A DNA stretch of 64,000 nucleotides. Source: Microbacterium sp. zg-B185. GTDB taxonomy: Bacteria; Actinomycetota; Actinomycetes; Actinomycetales; Microbacteriaceae. The stretch covers positions 1,736,001 to 1,800,000 of the forward strand of contig NZ_CP126739.1 in NCBI RefSeq assembly GCF_030246885.1, read 5' to 3'. The translations under genes and the position numbers were made by a program. The notes below the pieces were generated by a model that made no database searches, was not told the DNA's origin, and was given only the letters and a program-made list of their open reading frames with translations. Shown here one piece after another: positions 5,816 through 13,272 of this stretch (its first letter is position 1; every line of letters starts with the position of its first letter).

Positions 5816-7275
<1,460 letters not shown>

Positions 7276-7276
<1 letters not shown>

Positions 7277-7971
7277 TGGCAGAGGCCAACGCGGGAAAGG
7301 CGCTCAGCGTCGAGATCGACGGCACCTCCTACGCGCGCATCCCCATCCGGACGCGCGTGGTCATGCCGGGAGACGACTTGGACGCCTTCATCCGCGAGTA
7401 CGCGGCCGACATCGTGCAGCCCGGTGATCTGTTCTTCGTGACGGAGAAGATCGTGGCCATCACGCAGGGACGCTCCTACCCGCTCGAGGACATCCAGCCG
7501 CGGCGTCTGGCGCTGTTCCTGTCGAAGTACGTCACGCGCACGCCCTACGGCATCGGTCTCGGCATGCCCGAGACGATGGAGATGGCCCTTCGCGAGTGCG
7601 GAACCCCGCGCATTCTGTTCGCCGCGGCCGTCTCTGCCATCACCAAGGCGCTCGGGCGCAAGGGCGACTTCTACCGCATCGCCGGGGACAAGGCCCGCGC
7701 GATCGACGGTCCCACCAGCGGCACCATCCCCCCGTACAACAGGGCGGTCGTGCTGGGTCCCGAGCGTCCGCGCGCGGTCGCCCAGCATCTGAAGGATCTC
7801 CTCGGCGGCGTCCCCGAGGTGGCGGTCGTGGACATCAACGACCTCGGCGGCAACATCCTCGGCTCTACGCTGGACAGGGCCGGCGAACGGCGCCTGGTCG
7901 AGATCCTGAAGGACAACCCGCTCGGTCAGGGCCACCAGTCCACGCCGCTGGGTGTGGTCCGCGCCGCCTAG
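7276..7971 (+). CDS. Coenzyme F420-0:L-glutamate ligase-like (CofE-fold) protein
   Basis: A 231-residue protein resembling the CofE family, which joins glutamate to the F420 lactyl tail by GTP-dependent amide formation. The family-like stretches are MPGDDL near residue 33, then GDLFFVTEKIVAITQGR and later GDFYRIAGDKARAIDGP. No other F420 gene is in the window, so a true F420 role is unproven. A different amide-ligase or regulatory role is possible. The ATG overlaps the sigA TGA by one base, and the stop codon shares the CTAG at 7968-7971 with the convergent ATP-grasp gene. Confidence 0.7.
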
Positions 7972-8990
7972 AAGCCGATCGCGGCGCGATACCGCGGCTT
8001 GTGGCCGGTGCGGATGCCGGTGACACTGGGTTTGTTCTCGTAGACGCCGGCGCCCCAGTTGCCCTCCACGAGCACGGGCCCTTCGGGTGTGACCACGACG
8101 TCCCAGCCGACGTACTGCACCTGGGGCACCACGCGGGCCACGCGGTCGATGAACGCGCGCACCTGTTCCATCATGGGCAGCTGGAACTGATCGATGACGA
8201 ACCCGGAGTCGGGGTGGGCGGCGTAGACGTGTCCATGGGAGTCGTATCCCGGCCCGACAGCGCGGCCGTCGTCGTCGAGCATCGTGTAGAAGCCGCCGAA
8301 GGTCATCTGATCACTCACGGCACCGCGTCCGAACTTCTGCGCCATCGCCAGGATGTGCGTCTTCTCGCCGTCGAAGAACGCGGTGATGCGGGTGGTGTTG
8401 ACCGTCCCAGGACACACCGCGGCCAGGGCGGCATGCTGCTGGATCACCTCTTCGACCAGCAGCTCGCCGCGCGCGAGCAGGCCACGGTGGAAAGCCGCCC
8501 AGTCCTCGATCTCGGCGGCGTGGTAGCGGTGCACACCGGTCCCGGCCTGTCCGACCGGCTCCTTCGTCACGATGGTGCCCAGGCGCTCCGTGAACGCGCG
8601 GACCCGTTCGGCGTTGTCCTCCTCGACGACCATCCACTCCCGATGCAGGTACTCGCTGAAGACACGGTCGAATTCGATCTTGTCCTGGAAGATGTGCCGG
8701 AACGCCGGATCGTCGTACTTCTGCGAGAGCTGGTTGGACACCGGGTGCGTCATGTAGGTCGCGCGCTCCGCGCGGCTGAGGGCGGCGAAGTCGTAGTCGA
8801 TGTAGTCCTGGAACCCCACGTTGCGCAGGCCGGCCTGCCAGAGCATGTCGACGACGATCGCGGGGGTCCATTTGCCGTGCTGGGCGGAGGCTTCCTTCGC
8901 ACGGTCCAGAACGGAGCCGACGTCGATGCGGCGTGCGCGGCCGGCGAGATAGCGAAGGCGGGGCGCGAGGCCGAGGCCTGGAGAGGGCAT
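7968..8990 (-). CDS. ATP-grasp family protein (sugar-transfer-associated type)
   Basis: A 340-residue ATP-grasp ligase-like protein. The fold is suggested by the nucleotide-binding strands around GTIVTKEPVGQAGTGVHRY and ELLVEEVIQQH. The C-terminal segment GWDVVVTPEGPVLVEGNW matches the metal-binding Glu/Asn end of ATP-grasp domains (the VEGN motif). Such enzymes form amide or ester bonds with an acyl phosphate intermediate; the substrate is unknown. It is convergent with the CofE-like gene and divergent from the racemase pair, starting only 45 bases from it. An involvement with D-amino acids or the cell wall is inference from position only. Confidence 0.75.
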   Translation of the reverse strand: MPSPGLGLAPRLRYLAGRARRIDVGSVLDRAKEASAQHGKWTPAIVVDMLWQAGLRNVGFQDYIDYDFAALSRAERATYMTHPVSNQLSQKYDDPAFRHIFQDKIEFDRVFSEYLHREWMVVEEDNAERVRAFTERLGTIVTKEPVGQAGTGVHRYHAAEIEDWAAFHRGLLARGELLVEEVIQQHAALAAVCPGTVNTTRITAFFDGEKTHILAMAQKFGRGAVSDQMTFGGFYTMLDDDGRAVGPGYDSHGHVYAAHPDSGFVIDQFQLPMMEQVRAFIDRVARVVPQVQYVGWDVVVTPEGPVLVEGNWGAGVYENKPSVTGIRTGHKPRYRAAIGF

Positions 8991-9035: not shown

Positions 9036-9761
9036 GTGACCTTCGGCATCCCTGGACGCGCGTCGTCCGACGCGGGCACGGGTGCGCGCACCGCCCCGGT
9101 GGCGCGGATATCCCGCGGCGCGGTGGAGCGGAATCTGCGCGCGGTCCTGGCCAGTGGGCGTGGCGGCGTCATCGACCTGCGGGCGGATGCGTGGGGCCAC
9201 GGCGTGGACGTGGTCGCGCCGATCGCACTGCGAGCGGGCGCCGCCGCTCTTCTGGTCGACGACGTCGCCGCGCCGGACCTGGACGGCGTCATCGACGCTG
9301 CGCGCCGGCTTGACAGCGGCGTGGCCACCGCGCCGGAGGCGGTGTACGGGCTGACTCCCGGCTTCACACCGGTGCTGAGCCTGAGCGGGTGGGTGCTGAG
9401 CCTGAAGCGCCTCCGCGCGGGCGAGGGCGTCTCCTACGGCTTCACCCATCGTGCGATCGCGGACACCACGGTCGCGCTGGTCACCGGCGGCTACGCGCAG
9501 GGGATCGTGCGCGCCCTCGGCAATGCGGCCTCGGTTGTGATCGCCGGAGAGCGGCATCCGATCGTCGGTCGGGTGGCGATGGATGTCTGCGTGGTGGACG
9601 TCGGGTCGGCGCGGGTTCGCCGGGGCGATGAGGTCCTGTTCTTCGGCGACCCCGCCGACGGCGCGCCGGCTCTGACGGAATGGACGGCGGCGACCGGGCT
9701 GAGCGCGGCCGAACTCGTCACCGCTGTCGGCCTGCGCGCCGGACGGGAGTACACGCCGTGA
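9036..9761 (+). CDS. Short alanine-racemase-like subunit keeping the catalytic Tyr domain but lacking the PLP Lys
   Basis: A 241-residue protein, against about 370 for normal alanine racemase. Residues 22-75 match the first part of the PLP barrel, but the lysine motif reads LRADAWGHG, so Arg49 replaces the PLP-binding Lys. The middle of the barrel, which carries the usual Arg136, His166 and Arg219 (Geobacillus numbering), is missing. The C-terminal domain is intact: GVSYGFTH carries Tyr134 (catalytic Tyr265 equivalent), GGYAQG carries Tyr153 (Tyr284 equivalent) and GRVAMD carries Met181 (Met312 equivalent). The GTG at 9036 is the only plausible in-frame start. Its stop overlaps the next racemase gene by four bases. 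Alone it should be inactive; it may pair with that product. Confidence 0.85.
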   Translation: MTFGIPGRASSDAGTGARTAPVARISRGAVERNLRAVLASGRGGVIDLRADAWGHGVDVVAPIALRAGAAALLVDDVAAPDLDGVIDAARRLDSGVATAPEAVYGLTPGFTPVLSLSGWVLSLKRLRAGEGVSYGFTHRAIADTTVALVTGGYAQGIVRALGNAASVVIAGERHPIVGRVAMDVCVVDVGSARVRRGDEVLFFGDPADGAPALTEWTAATGLSAAELVTAVGLRAGREYTP

Positions 9762-10801
9762 CCGCGCCAGAACTGCAGGTCGACCTGGACGCGCTGGCCG
9801 CCAACATCGCGGTCGTCCGAGCGCGGGTCGCCCCGGCGCAGCTCATGCTCATCGTCAAGGATGACGCCTACGGACACGGCCTGACGGCGGTGGTGACCAG
9901 AGCTGCGGCCGAGGGCGTCGTCTGGTTCGGCGCGTTCGACGTGCGCGAGGCGCTTCGGACCCGCGCCGCGGTCGGCCCCAAGGCCCGCGTCTTCTCGTGG
10001 CTCACCGTCGGGGCGGACGAGATCACTGCGGCCCTGGCCGCGGACATCGACCTCGGGGTCGGCGACGCCGGCTTCCTGGAAGACATCGCGGCCGCGGCAC
10101 GCACGGCCGGCGCGCCTGCCCGGGTGCACTTGAAGATCGACACCGGCCTGCACCGCAACGGCATCCGTCCGGAGGAGTGGGACGCGATCCTCGGCCGGGC
10201 GCAGGCCCTCGCGACCGAAGGCCTGCTGCGCGTCGTCGGTGTCTGGAGTCACATCGCCGAAGCGAGCGACGCGGAGGACGACACCGCGCGTGCCCTGTTC
10301 GAGGACGCGGTCACGGCGGCGGAGGCGGCGGGATTCGCGCTGGACGTGCGCCACCTGTCCGCCAGCGCCGCCTCGTTCGCCCGGCCGGAGTTCCGCTACG
10401 ACCTCGCCCGGGTCGGGGCGTTCTGCTACGGCATCCGTCCCGCCGGCGGACCCGGTCAGGACGAGCTCGGCATCCGTCCGGTCGCCTCGCTCGTCGCGAC
10501 GGTCACGCACGTCGCGGACTACGCCGTCACGCTCGGCGTCGGCTCGCTGCACGGACTTCCCTCGACGCTTGCCCAGCATGCCCACCTCGAGGTGGCCGGA
10601 GACCGTCGCGAGGTTCGGCACGTCGGCGCGACCCACACGATGGTCGCGCCCTGGCGCGGGGCTGCGGTGGGGCAGCGGGTTGCCGTCGTCGGTCCGGACG
10701 GGACGTCGGCGACCGATCTGGCCGAGACGATCGGCACAGTCGGCGAGGAGCTCCTGGTGCGCGTGTCGCCGCTGGTGCGGCGGGCGTATCCGGGCCGGTA
10801 G
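9758..10801 (+). CDS. alr: Alanine-racemase-like subunit with intact PLP barrel but degenerate C-terminal domain
   Basis: A 347-residue PLP barrel protein. VKDDAYGHG holds Lys34 (PLP Schiff base, Lys39 equivalent) and Tyr38. KIDTGLHRNG holds Lys126 and Arg133 (Lys129 and Arg136 equivalents), WSHIAE holds His165, LSASAAS holds Ser203, and ARVGAFCYG holds Arg218 (Arg219 equivalent). In the C-terminal domain the VSYGxTY, GYADG and GRxCMD motifs are absent; the region reads GVGSLHGLPSTLAQHAH, so the second-subunit tyrosine is missing. The final VRRAYPG resembles the usual racemase end. The GTG start overlaps the preceding gene (GTGA at 9758-9761). The losses mirror those of the preceding protein, which points to a heteromeric racemase. 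The amino acid substrate is not certain. Confidence 0.88.
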   Translation: MTAPELQVDLDALAANIAVVRARVAPAQLMLIVKDDAYGHGLTAVVTRAAAEGVVWFGAFDVREALRTRAAVGPKARVFSWLTVGADEITAALAADIDLGVGDAGFLEDIAAAARTAGAPARVHLKIDTGLHRNGIRPEEWDAILGRAQALATEGLLRVVGVWSHIAEASDAEDDTARALFEDAVTAAEAAGFALDVRHLSASAASFARPEFRYDLARVGAFCYGIRPAGGPGQDELGIRPVASLVATVTHVADYAVTLGVGSLHGLPSTLAQHAHLEVAGDRREVRHVGATHTMVAPWRGAAVGQRVAVVGPDGTSATDLAETIGTVGEELLVRVSPLVRRAYPGR

Positions 10802-10804
10802 GAC

Positions 10805-11026
10805 TCAGACGGACTCGAGCAGTCGAGCCGTCTCGTCGTGCCAGCTGGTGGCCATCGACCGCAGCTTCTCTTCGTACTTGCGACCGTGGTGGGCGCAGAA
10901 CAGCAGCTCGCTGCCGTTGACCTCGGCGGCGATGTAGGCCTGTGCTCCACACGAGTCGCACCGGTCCAGCGCGGTCAGGCGGTACTCGAGGACGGCGGGC
11001 TCGGTCGGTGTCGAAAGCGTGTTCAT
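10805..11026 (-). CDS. Small zinc-ribbon-like protein (DUF7455 type)
   Basis: A 73-residue conserved actinobacterial protein. The motifs RCDSCGAQA and LFCAHHGRKYEE give a CxxC plus CxxH set typical of a bound zinc. The ATG at 11026 has a strong AGGAGGA site. It ends three bases after the convergent racemase gene. The function is unknown; a regulatory or RNA polymerase-linked role has not been shown. The family name is from memory and less certain than the gene itself. Confidence 0.8.
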   Translation of the reverse strand: MNTLSTPTEPAVLEYRLTALDRCDSCGAQAYIAAEVNGSELLFCAHHGRKYEEKLRSMATSWHDETARLLESV

Positions 11027-11188: not shown

Positions 11189-11194
11189 TACGCT
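11189..11194 (+). promoter_or_regulatory. Weak candidate -10 element (TACGCT) for parE
   Basis: TACGCT ends eight bases before the GTG at 11203, and no ribosome site is visible. The spacing is slightly longer than at other leaderless candidates here. Confidence 0.3.
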
Positions 11195-11202
11195 TGACGA
11201 TT

Positions 11203-13272
11203 GTGACCTCCGAGTATTCCGCCCACCATCTGCAGGTGCTGGAAGGACTCGAAGCGGTCCGCAAGCGCCCGGGCATGTATATCGGCTCGACCGACTCTCG
11301 CGGTGTCATGCACTGCCTCTGGGAGATCATCGACAACTCTGTCGATGAGGCGCTGGGCGGGCACGGCAGTCGCATCGACGTGATCCTGCACAGTGACGGC
11401 AGTGTCGAGGTCCGTGACCGGGCACGCGGCATCCCGGTGGATATCGAACCGCGCACCGGCCTGTCCGGGGTCGAGGTGGTGTTCACGAAGCTGCATGCCG
11501 GCGGCAAGTTCGGCGGCGGCTCGTACGCGGCATCCGGCGGCCTGCACGGTGTCGGTGCCTCCGTCGTGAATGCGCTCTCCGCGCGACTGGACGTCGAGGT
11601 GGACCGGGGCGGCAAGACCTGGGCGATGTCGTTCCATCGCGGCGAACCGGGTGTCTTCGCCAACGGCAGCCCGGAATCGGCCTTCACACCCTTCGAGGAC
11701 CGCAGCGAGCTGCGCGTGGTCGGCAAGGTGGCCAAGGGCGTCACCGGCAGCCGGATCCGTTACTGGGCGGATCCGCAGATCTTCACGAAGGATGCCGCGT
11801 TCCACCTCGACGAACTGGAGCAGCGCGCGCGGCAGACGGCGTTCTTGATCCCCGGTCTCGAGATCGTCATCCGCGACGAGCGCGGGGACGAGCCGGTCGA
11901 GAACTCCTACCGCTTCGACGGCGGGATCTCGGAGTTCGCGGAGTTCCTCGCGCCCGATGCGCCCATCACCGACACGTGGCGTCTGACCGGCACCGGCACG
12001 TTCACCGAGACCGTCCCGGTCCTGCAGCCCACCGGCGCGATGGTTCCCACCGAGCTGGCCCGGGAGTGCGTCGTGGACATCGCGCTGCGCTGGGGAATCG
12101 GCTACGAGACGGTGCAGCGGTCCTTCGTCAACATCATCGCCACGCCGAAGGGCGGTACGCACCAGGCCGGGTTCGAGCTGGGCCTGATGAAGGTGCTCCG
12201 CTCGCAGATCGAGCAGAACGCGCGCCGGCTCAAGGTGGGCAACGACAAGATCGACAAGGATGACATCCTCGCGGGTCTGACCGCCGTGCTGACCGTTCGT
12301 CTGCCGGAGCCGCAGTTCGAGGGCCAGACGAAGGAGATCCTCGGTACGCCCGCCGTCCGCCAGATCGTCGCGAATGTCGTGGCGTCGGAGCTGGCCGCGA
12401 AGTTCGCCTCGACCAAGCGCGACGACAAGTCCCAGGCCGCGCAGCTGCTGGACAAGATCGTCTCCGAGATGAAGGCGCGCATCTCCGCCCGCACGCACAA
12501 GGAGACGCAGCGCCGCAAGAACGCGCTGGAGTCCTCGTCGCTGCCGACGAAGCTGGCCGACTGCCGCACCAACGACGTCGCCTCCTCGGAGCTGTTCATC
12601 GTCGAGGGCGACTCCGCGCTGGGCACGGCCAAGCTCGCCCGCAACAGCGAGTATCAGGCGCTGCTTCCCATCCGCGGGAAGATCCTGAACGTGCAGAAGG
12701 CCTCGGTCAGCGACATGCTCTCCAACGCCGAGTGCGCCGCGATCATCCAGGTGATCGGCGCCGGCTCGGGACGCTCGTTCGACCTGGACGCCGCCCGCTA
12801 CGGCAAGATCATCCTGATGAGCGATGCCGACGTCGACGGCGCGCACATCCGCACCCTGCTGCTGACGCTGTTCTTCCGGTACATGCGGCCGCTGATCGAC
12901 GACGGCCGCGTGTACGCGGCCGTGCCGCCGCTGCACCGCGTGATCGTCACGAACCCCGGCACGAAGCCGAACGACACGATCTACACCTACAGCGAGCAGG
13001 AGCTGCACGCCCTGCTGGCCAAGCTCACCAAGGCGGGCAAGCGCTGGCAGGAGCCCATCCAGCGCTATAAGGGCCTCGGCGAGATGGATGCCGATCAGCT
13101 GGCGACCACGACGATGGACCGCGCCGGACGCGCCCTGCGGCGCGTGCGGATGACGGATGCCGAAGCGGCGGCATCCGTCTTCGAACTGCTCATGGGCAAC
13201 GACGTCGCTCCGCGCAAGGAGTTCATCATCGACTCCAGCGACCGCCTGGGCCGCGAGCGCATCGACGCCTGA
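11203..13272 (+). CDS. parE: Type IIA topoisomerase subunit B (topoisomerase IV ParE-like)
   Basis: The ATPase subunit of a second type II topoisomerase. The GHKL ATP site is seen in DNSVDEALGG and GGLHGVGASVVNALS, and the TOPRIM metal site in LFIVEGDSA and MSDADVDGAHIR. The C-terminal YKGLGEMDADQLATTTMD is typical. The start was set at GTG 11203 (MTSEYSAHHL, 689 residues); an in-frame TTG lies at 11194. The partner A subunit is convergent at 13748-16204 rather than in an operon. Since gyrBA of actinobacteria usually sits at the origin, this pair is called topoisomerase IV-like; enzyme type is inferred, not proven. Confidence 0.92.
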   Translation: MTSEYSAHHLQVLEGLEAVRKRPGMYIGSTDSRGVMHCLWEIIDNSVDEALGGHGSRIDVILHSDGSVEVRDRARGIPVDIEPRTGLSGVEVVFTKLHAGGKFGGGSYAASGGLHGVGASVVNALSARLDVEVDRGGKTWAMSFHRGEPGVFANGSPESAFTPFEDRSELRVVGKVAKGVTGSRIRYWADPQIFTKDAAFHLDELEQRARQTAFLIPGLEIVIRDERGDEPVENSYRFDGGISEFAEFLAPDAPITDTWRLTGTGTFTETVPVLQPTGAMVPTELARECVVDIALRWGIGYETVQRSFVNIIATPKGGTHQAGFELGLMKVLRSQIEQNARRLKVGNDKIDKDDILAGLTAVLTVRLPEPQFEGQTKEILGTPAVRQIVANVVASELAAKFASTKRDDKSQAAQLLDKIVSEMKARISARTHKETQRRKNALESSSLPTKLADCRTNDVASSELFIVEGDSALGTAKLARNSEYQALLPIRGKILNVQKASVSDMLSNAECAAIIQVIGAGSGRSFDLDAARYGKIILMSDADVDGAHIRTLLLTLFFRYMRPLIDDGRVYAAVPPLHRVIVTNPGTKPNDTIYTYSEQELHALLAKLTKAGKRWQEPIQRYKGLGEMDADQLATTTMDRAGRALRRVRMTDAEAAASVFELLMGNDVAPRKEFIIDSSDRLGRERIDA

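Follow-up and report, generated by a model that had tools for sequence, protein, structure and literature searches.

The active site of alanine racemase (Alr) lies at the interface of two subunits, as PMC8142540 states. Alr (TIGR00492), represented by the solved structures of M. tuberculosis (1xfc/6scz) and S. lavendulae (1vfh), shares its fold and active-site residues with the pair of proteins analyzed here, designated P1 and P2. Whereas Alr is a homodimer with two sites, P1P2 consists of two different chains with complementary losses, which would form one site, and carries Glu in place of Tyr354. The Alr fold also acts on basic amino acids in the lysine and broad-specificity racemases (4dza, 4dyj and BsrV 7agz), which are homodimers, yet the sequences of P1 and P2 are closer to actinobacterial Alr than to these enzymes. 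PddB, a PLP-independent diaminobutyrate racemase of actinobacteria, makes a D-diamino acid by means of an unrelated fold. Duplicated enzymes whose copies depend on one another are known from trypanosomes, i.e., deoxyhypusine synthase and the AdoMetDC prozyme, and are unrelated to P1P2. Homologues of a further described system, the lipid II isoglutaminyl synthase MurT-GatD (5n9m, 6gs2, 6fqb), accompany the pair in many genomes of the Microbacteriaceae, a family known for its group-B walls. Literature searches listed nothing on an ornithine racemase in Microbacterium, on type-B peptidoglycan together with a racemase, or on the biosynthetic genes of the group-B peptidoglycan cross-bridge, while those for a heterodimeric alanine racemase gave either no hit or a few papers, among them the Alr paper cited above (PMC8142540).

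The window, i.e., the whole stretch of 64,000 nucleotides that was analyzed, contains the pair in a cassette with the order CofE-like gene, ATP-grasp, P1, P2 and DUF7455, bordered by putative sigA/rpoD-like and parE-like genes:

5816..7276, plus strand: gene for a sigA/rpoD-like sigma factor, bordering the cassette on the left
7276..7971, plus strand: CofE-like gene
7968..8990, minus strand: ATP-grasp (ATPgrasp_ST) ligase-like gene, divergent from P1
9036..9761, plus strand: P1, putative Tyr-donating racemase subunit of 241 aa, with Arg49 at the PLP-Lys position of Alr, and with Tyr134, Tyr153 and Met182
9758..10801, plus strand: P2, putative Lys-donating racemase subunit of 347 aa, with Lys34, Lys126, Arg133, His165, Ser203 and Arg218, and with Glu330 at the Tyr354 position
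9758..9761, plus strand: overlap of the P1 stop and the P2 start, four bases (GTGA)
10805..11026, minus strand: gene for a small DUF7455 protein, at the cassette border
11194..13272, plus strand: parE-like gene (topoisomerase IV subunit B), bordering the cassette on the right

The Alr fold was found for both P1 and P2, and the closest to each among solved structures and NCBIfam models was Alr itself. P1 matches the Ala_racemase_C family (109 bits), its barrel being mostly gone, while P2 matches the full Ala_racemase_N family (182 bits) and has a degenerate C-domain (22 bits, below the cut-off of 25); against TIGR00492 they score 103.5 and 140.1 bits, respectively, both below the curated single-chain cut-off of 168. 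Equivalent positions are named after the G. stearothermophilus enzyme and were mapped via the source genome's own alr. The initial annotation, which read the genes as an obligate heterodimeric alanine racemase, held that P1 has lost the PLP Lys (Arg49) and most of the barrel and has kept Tyr134, Tyr153 and Met181, which is accurate save for the Met, located at residue 182. Its account of P2, i.e., Lys34, Arg133, His165, Ser203 and Arg218 retained without the Tyr, is borne out by the alignment, as is the GTGA overlap by the coordinates; this overlap is common to 102 of 109 loci with both genes, start codons being taken closest to those in the window.

The division of residues between the two chains was followed across 80 named and 30 further loci; P1 was obtained from all 110 (101 distinct sequences) and P2 from 109, the P2 alignment comprising 107 closed rows (98 distinct). 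The equivalents of Tyr265 and Met312 are present in all 110 P1 rows (Tyr265 in 101 of 101 distinct ones), while the PLP-Lys column contains Lys in none of them (R 67, A 25, E 8, D 4, T 2, P 1, M 1, L 1 and one gap). In P2, the PLP Lys and the Arg136-equivalent are each found in 106 of 107 rows, with one gap, and the equivalents of His166, Ser204 and Arg219 in 107 of 107; the Tyr265-equivalent occurs in 0 of 107 rows and the Tyr354 column is Glu in every one. The PLP Lys and the catalytic Tyr are thus on separate chains in every pair read. A single TGA lies inside the P2 match in five genomes (G147, G004, G099, G092 and G030), the last of which has a 350-aa ORF at its locus (L017). Records named Planococcus sp. 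APC 4015 (L095) and Micromonospora sp. DT81.3 (P0169) contain Microbacterium-type racemase genes and are probably mislabeled or contaminated.

Relatives in which one of the two genes is missing, which the initial annotation considered damaging to its proposal, were not encountered among 149 Microbacterium genomes: both halves are present in 125 and neither in 24 (one of these, G046, being only 81% complete), and none has one alone, as tallied by best E-value from the P1 and P2 tables, with adjacency checked for part of the genomes. The 125 comprise 123 genomes with separate P1 and P2 matches, one with a fusion (G090) and one with a frameshifted pair (G091, L188:2089-4192), the assembly of the latter being 68% complete, so that error and decay are both possible. 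An obligate heterodimer which arose by reciprocal loss is well supported by the complementarity, by this all-or-none co-occurrence across 149 genomes, by natural fusions and by forms with a full-length partner.

With a probability of roughly 0.63, we consider P1P2 to be an obligate heterodimeric fold-III PLP racemase beside a peptidoglycan ligase, most likely making D-ornithine for group-B peptidoglycan. That the product is a D-diamino acid destined for the peptidoglycan bridge is suggested by the genes around the pair, by its distribution and by the Glu which P2 invariably has in place of Tyr354. P2 would bind PLP via Lys34 and supply Arg133, His165, Ser203 and Arg218, while the Alr-type C-domain of P1 would supply the second catalytic base, Tyr134, together with Met182, resulting in one active site per heterodimer, the second site of the homodimer being dead. 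L-Orn would be racemized between the two bases, Lys34 (P2) and Tyr134 (P1), and Glu330 of P2 may read the side-chain amine. The product would then be linked to D-Glu by the neighboring ligase, i.e., the ATP-grasp in the window and MurT with a glutaminase-dead GatD elsewhere, such that D-ornithine, or perhaps another D-diamino acid in other genera, would bridge D-Glu to D-Ala in group-B peptidoglycan. The D-Orn could instead come from alr or another racemase.

Natural fusions place both halves in one chain, as in G090, where a 531-aa protein scores 228 bits against TIGR00492 (cut-off 168). Among the 120 matches listed for this fusion, 13 are fused or judged to be so (P0003-P0014 and P0045), seven by reading of the sequence (P0004, P0009, P0011-P0014 and P0045) and six by length and coverage. 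The shorter ones (P0003-P0010, P0012 and P0013) measure 522-557 aa, while P0011, P0014 (Parafrigoribacterium mesophilum) and P0045 measure 731-734 aa and have a full-length first half, which in P0014 has Ser in place of the PLP Lys and retains the Tyr. The predicted structure of the G090 fusion (pLDDT 90.6, pTM 0.89) has a low-confidence linker at 164-174. Since single Alr chains align with the P2 half of this model alone, at TM 0.56-0.62 on the query, its high pTM hints at a confident predicted placement of the P1 half on the P2 half.

Beyond Microbacterium, a search of 299 Microbacteriaceae genomes from 85 genera returned adjoining P1-like and P2-like matches in many genera and, in many others, a single P2-profile match per genome, taken as alr, which means that many genera of the family are probably pair-less. 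From this search 40 loci were retrieved, selected because both halves matched side by side; 32 of them, from 28 genera besides Microbacterium, contain 33 pairs, and the Lys/Tyr split is complementary in 33 of 33. The other eight comprise six tandems of full-length complete copies, one fusion and the frameshifted locus of G091. At one extreme, P1 is a full-length chain in which the PLP Lys has been lost together with further barrel residues (L153 and L181; approximately 350 aa in L168 and L182), and at the other it is little more than the C-domain (L177-L180), all these lengths being approximate and the usual reduced form lying in between. Position 354 is Asp or Glu in all P2 proteins and in the second copy of all six tandems, which of the two is present varying among genera. 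At one locus, L168 (G370), a stretch of 10 kb contains two distinct racemase pairs together with two ATP-grasps. When 198 genomes of the order were searched with the P2 profile, nothing above 249 bits, the level of alr, was found outside the family, and the best 20 of 96 records in a plasmid search with P2 were distant Alr-type matches only, with less than 60% identity.

The genes beside the pair differ among genomes. The ATP-grasp occurs in 65 of the 80 named loci and MurT with GatD in 12, while three show neither within the retrieved stretch and none has both, the ATPgrasp_ST gene occupying the place which is held elsewhere by MurT and a GatD without Cys. Across the 149 Microbacterium genomes, MurT_C was detected in 28 and a strong ATP-grasp match in 120, with no overlap and with one genome (G044, 88% complete) having neither; as the MurT matches score low (31-45 bits against a cut-off of 25), the search may have passed over a distant MurT. 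The pair is present in 28 of 28 MurT genomes, two of which (G026 and G076) contain weak extra ATP-grasp matches. ATPgrasp_ST and MurT are thus mutually exclusive across the genus, as if the ATP-grasp had replaced MurT-GatD. The CofE-like gene, a relative of which gave a very weak match to the F420-0:glutamate ligase model (19 bits, cut-off 181), was seen in 11 cassettes without MurT, two of which, L212 and L218, lack the ATP-grasp too; it was not seen in the 12 cassettes of other genera with MurT. These 12 (L210, L211, L213, L214, L216, L217, L219-L223 and L225) are among 17 cassettes of other genera examined over 15 kb, of which L209 and L224 have ATP-grasps and L215 shows neither ligase. L212 and L218 are pair cassettes complete from sigA to parE with neither an ATP-grasp nor MurT, and they speak against a strict link between pair and ligase.

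The GatD encoded beside the pair differs from that of the MurT-GatD synthase at the catalytic position, an example being:

L187:3046-3885, minus strand: GatD without catalytic Cys, alongside 46 further cassette rows

The catalytic residue of GatD, Cys94, falls in the TICGGYQ motif of the alignment and is absent from all 47 readable rows (of 55 matches, some being one place fetched twice), and in many the His is absent as well. GatD homologues from other families of the order retain Cys and His in 27 of 27 cases, while the two readable Microbacteriaceae members in the same order-wide search lack the Cys and retain the His. Amidation with glutamine-derived ammonia is therefore unlikely.

Cassettes from seven of the 24 pair-less Microbacterium genomes (L200-L203, L205, L206 and L208) contain the CofE-like gene, one or two ATP-grasps and no racemase. 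That of Microbacterium sp. No. 7 (G121) also contains ectB (L205:8131-9426, minus strand), a diaminobutyrate transaminase gene linked to L-diaminobutyrate, scoring 589 bits against TIGR02407 (cut-off 552). The ATP-grasp of the pair-less cassettes with a single copy is of the type found in M. lacticum, M. flavum and M. laevaniformans (90%, 90% and 84% identity to that of G018, respectively), and is 53-56% identical to the ATP-grasp of the window. The M. lacticum clade, i.e., cluster II, presumably has L-Lys walls, and it fits a rule linking the pair to wall type solely via its ATP-grasp type and this presumed chemotype. These three species are placed in cluster II in PMC10757982. M. lacticum, M. 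laevaniformans, M. flavum, M. imperiale and M. arborescens are all missing from the 80 of 131 named pair loci covered, a coverage which makes their absence weak evidence.

The wall chemotypes were drawn from a few papers. Microbacterium walls contain D-Orn, L-Lys or Dab; D-Orn is given for M. galbinum and M. sufflavum as well as for the genus Paramicrobacterium (PMC10757982), and Orn for M. schleiferi (PMC10978784). Pair carriers, identified by record name and therefore possibly different strains from those studied chemically, include M. galbinum, M. sufflavum, M. schleiferi, M. testaceum, M. proteolyticum, M. oxydans, M. maritypicum, M. paraoxydans, M. hydrocarbonoxydans and M. enclense (L079), as well as Paramicrobacterium humi. 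The presence of the pair fits the wall in M. galbinum, M. sufflavum, M. schleiferi and P. humi; it does not in M. enclense, reported with L-lysine (PMC10757982), or in Rhodoluna lacicola, which has D-Dab (PMC4156110). The genome taken as R. lacicola (G158) returned one P2-profile match and two P1-profile matches, all at the level of alr, and this species appears to be without the pair. On this account the idea that the family requires the pair for each of its D-diamino acids was abandoned, as some of them can probably be made without it. M. enclense, R. lacicola and the pair cassettes without ligase speak against a simple rule.

Another possibility is that the pair is a heterodimeric racemase for a wall or cell amino acid other than ornithine, such as D-Lys, D-Ser, homoserine or Dab. 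The alternation of Asp and Glu at position 354 by genus may mean different substrates, a full-length Asp354 paralogue occurs in the genome taken as Clavibacter nebraskensis (G182), and the reported L-Lys of M. enclense is in line with such a reading; as the remaining named carriers with described walls have Orn (PMC10757982 and PMC10978784), we regard it as unlikely.

A heterodimeric alanine racemase, with the pair serving as a second or regulated source of D-Ala, would agree with the fact that, of the solved structures and NCBIfam models, those of Alr come closest to both halves. However, the source genome (G000) contains one normal alr, at about 2.8607-2.8618 Mb on the minus strand, with Lys and Tyr present, which scores 294 bits against TIGR00492 (cut-off 168) and has neighbors resembling acpS and tsaE. 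The initial annotation had itself named a full-length alr elsewhere as evidence against its reading, and because this gene is present the alanine racemase label is rejected, as far as alanine is concerned. Furthermore, the pair is absent from 24 of 149 Microbacterium genomes, Tyr354 is replaced by Glu throughout P2, and genes resembling D-Glu ligases adjoin the pair in most cassettes read, which leaves a role in D-Ala supply improbable.

Prozyme-type partners are known, and the loss of most of the P1 barrel would be in line with P1 being a non-catalytic or regulatory partner of a P2 that works without Tyr, perhaps in a different PLP reaction. Yet Tyr and Met are precisely what P1 retains, in 110 of 110 rows and in the 33 further pairs, and even where it is reduced to about the C-domain, so that this arrangement is very improbable. 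A decaying alr duplicate can be dismissed on selection and distribution: each half is indeed truncated or degenerate relative to Alr and the pair of G091 is frameshifted, but dN/dS over 10 locus pairs is well below 1 (0.12-0.41 for P1 and 0.14-0.28 for P2), such that neither resembles a decaying gene, while the identical split recurs in 28 further genera and fusions exist.

The proposed heterodimer would have originated by reciprocal loss after duplication. In a tree of barrel sequences, P2, the second copies of the tandems and Curtobacterium P0067 form one clade (100/98) apart from housekeeping Alr; within it P2 is divided into two groups, each of which also has complete copies, and the starred branches require at least two changes of the P2 label. 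At least two origins of the two-chain form are therefore likely, although one loss and one return would also explain these changes. A tree of C-domains, built on few columns, places all 44 P2 proteins in one group (99/91), and P1 with Alr and the first copies of the tandems (96/90, midpoint root), apart from P2 and the second copies; P1 as a single group is weakly supported (68/72). These positions indicate that the two chains probably had different parents, i.e., an Alr-like copy for P1 and a D/E354 paralogue for P2. The full-length tandem copies (L171, L174-L176, L183 and L184) were rejected as ancestors at the same locus: in the three of six viewed with 15 kb each (L226-L228) no cassette genes are seen, so they are relatives at another place.

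A broader proposal, which we put forward tentatively and at somewhat less than even odds, is that the sigA-parE segment is a group-B bridge module, in which the ligase, either MurT with its glutaminase-dead GatD or the unrelated ATP-grasp as a substitute, would join an amino acid, not ammonia, to the alpha-carboxyl of D-Glu and the two-chain racemase would supply the D-diamino acid. The two-chain form would have arisen at least twice by reciprocal loss, from a duplicated Alr-like copy keeping the Tyr and a D/E354 paralogue keeping the Lys, and would have shrunk stepwise to a bare C-domain and re-fused in several lineages.

Each of the two neighboring genes looks like half of a racemase, seemingly dead by itself and whole when joined with the other; the cell-wall genes around them suggest that the pair makes D-ornithine which is built into the walls of these bacteria. 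Complete tandem copies, a full-length partner without Lys, a truncated partner, a bare C-domain and re-fusion constitute a natural series, which shows how an obligate heterodimer can develop from a homodimer whose active site is shared, and candidate genes can now be named for the cross-bridge of group-B peptidoglycan.
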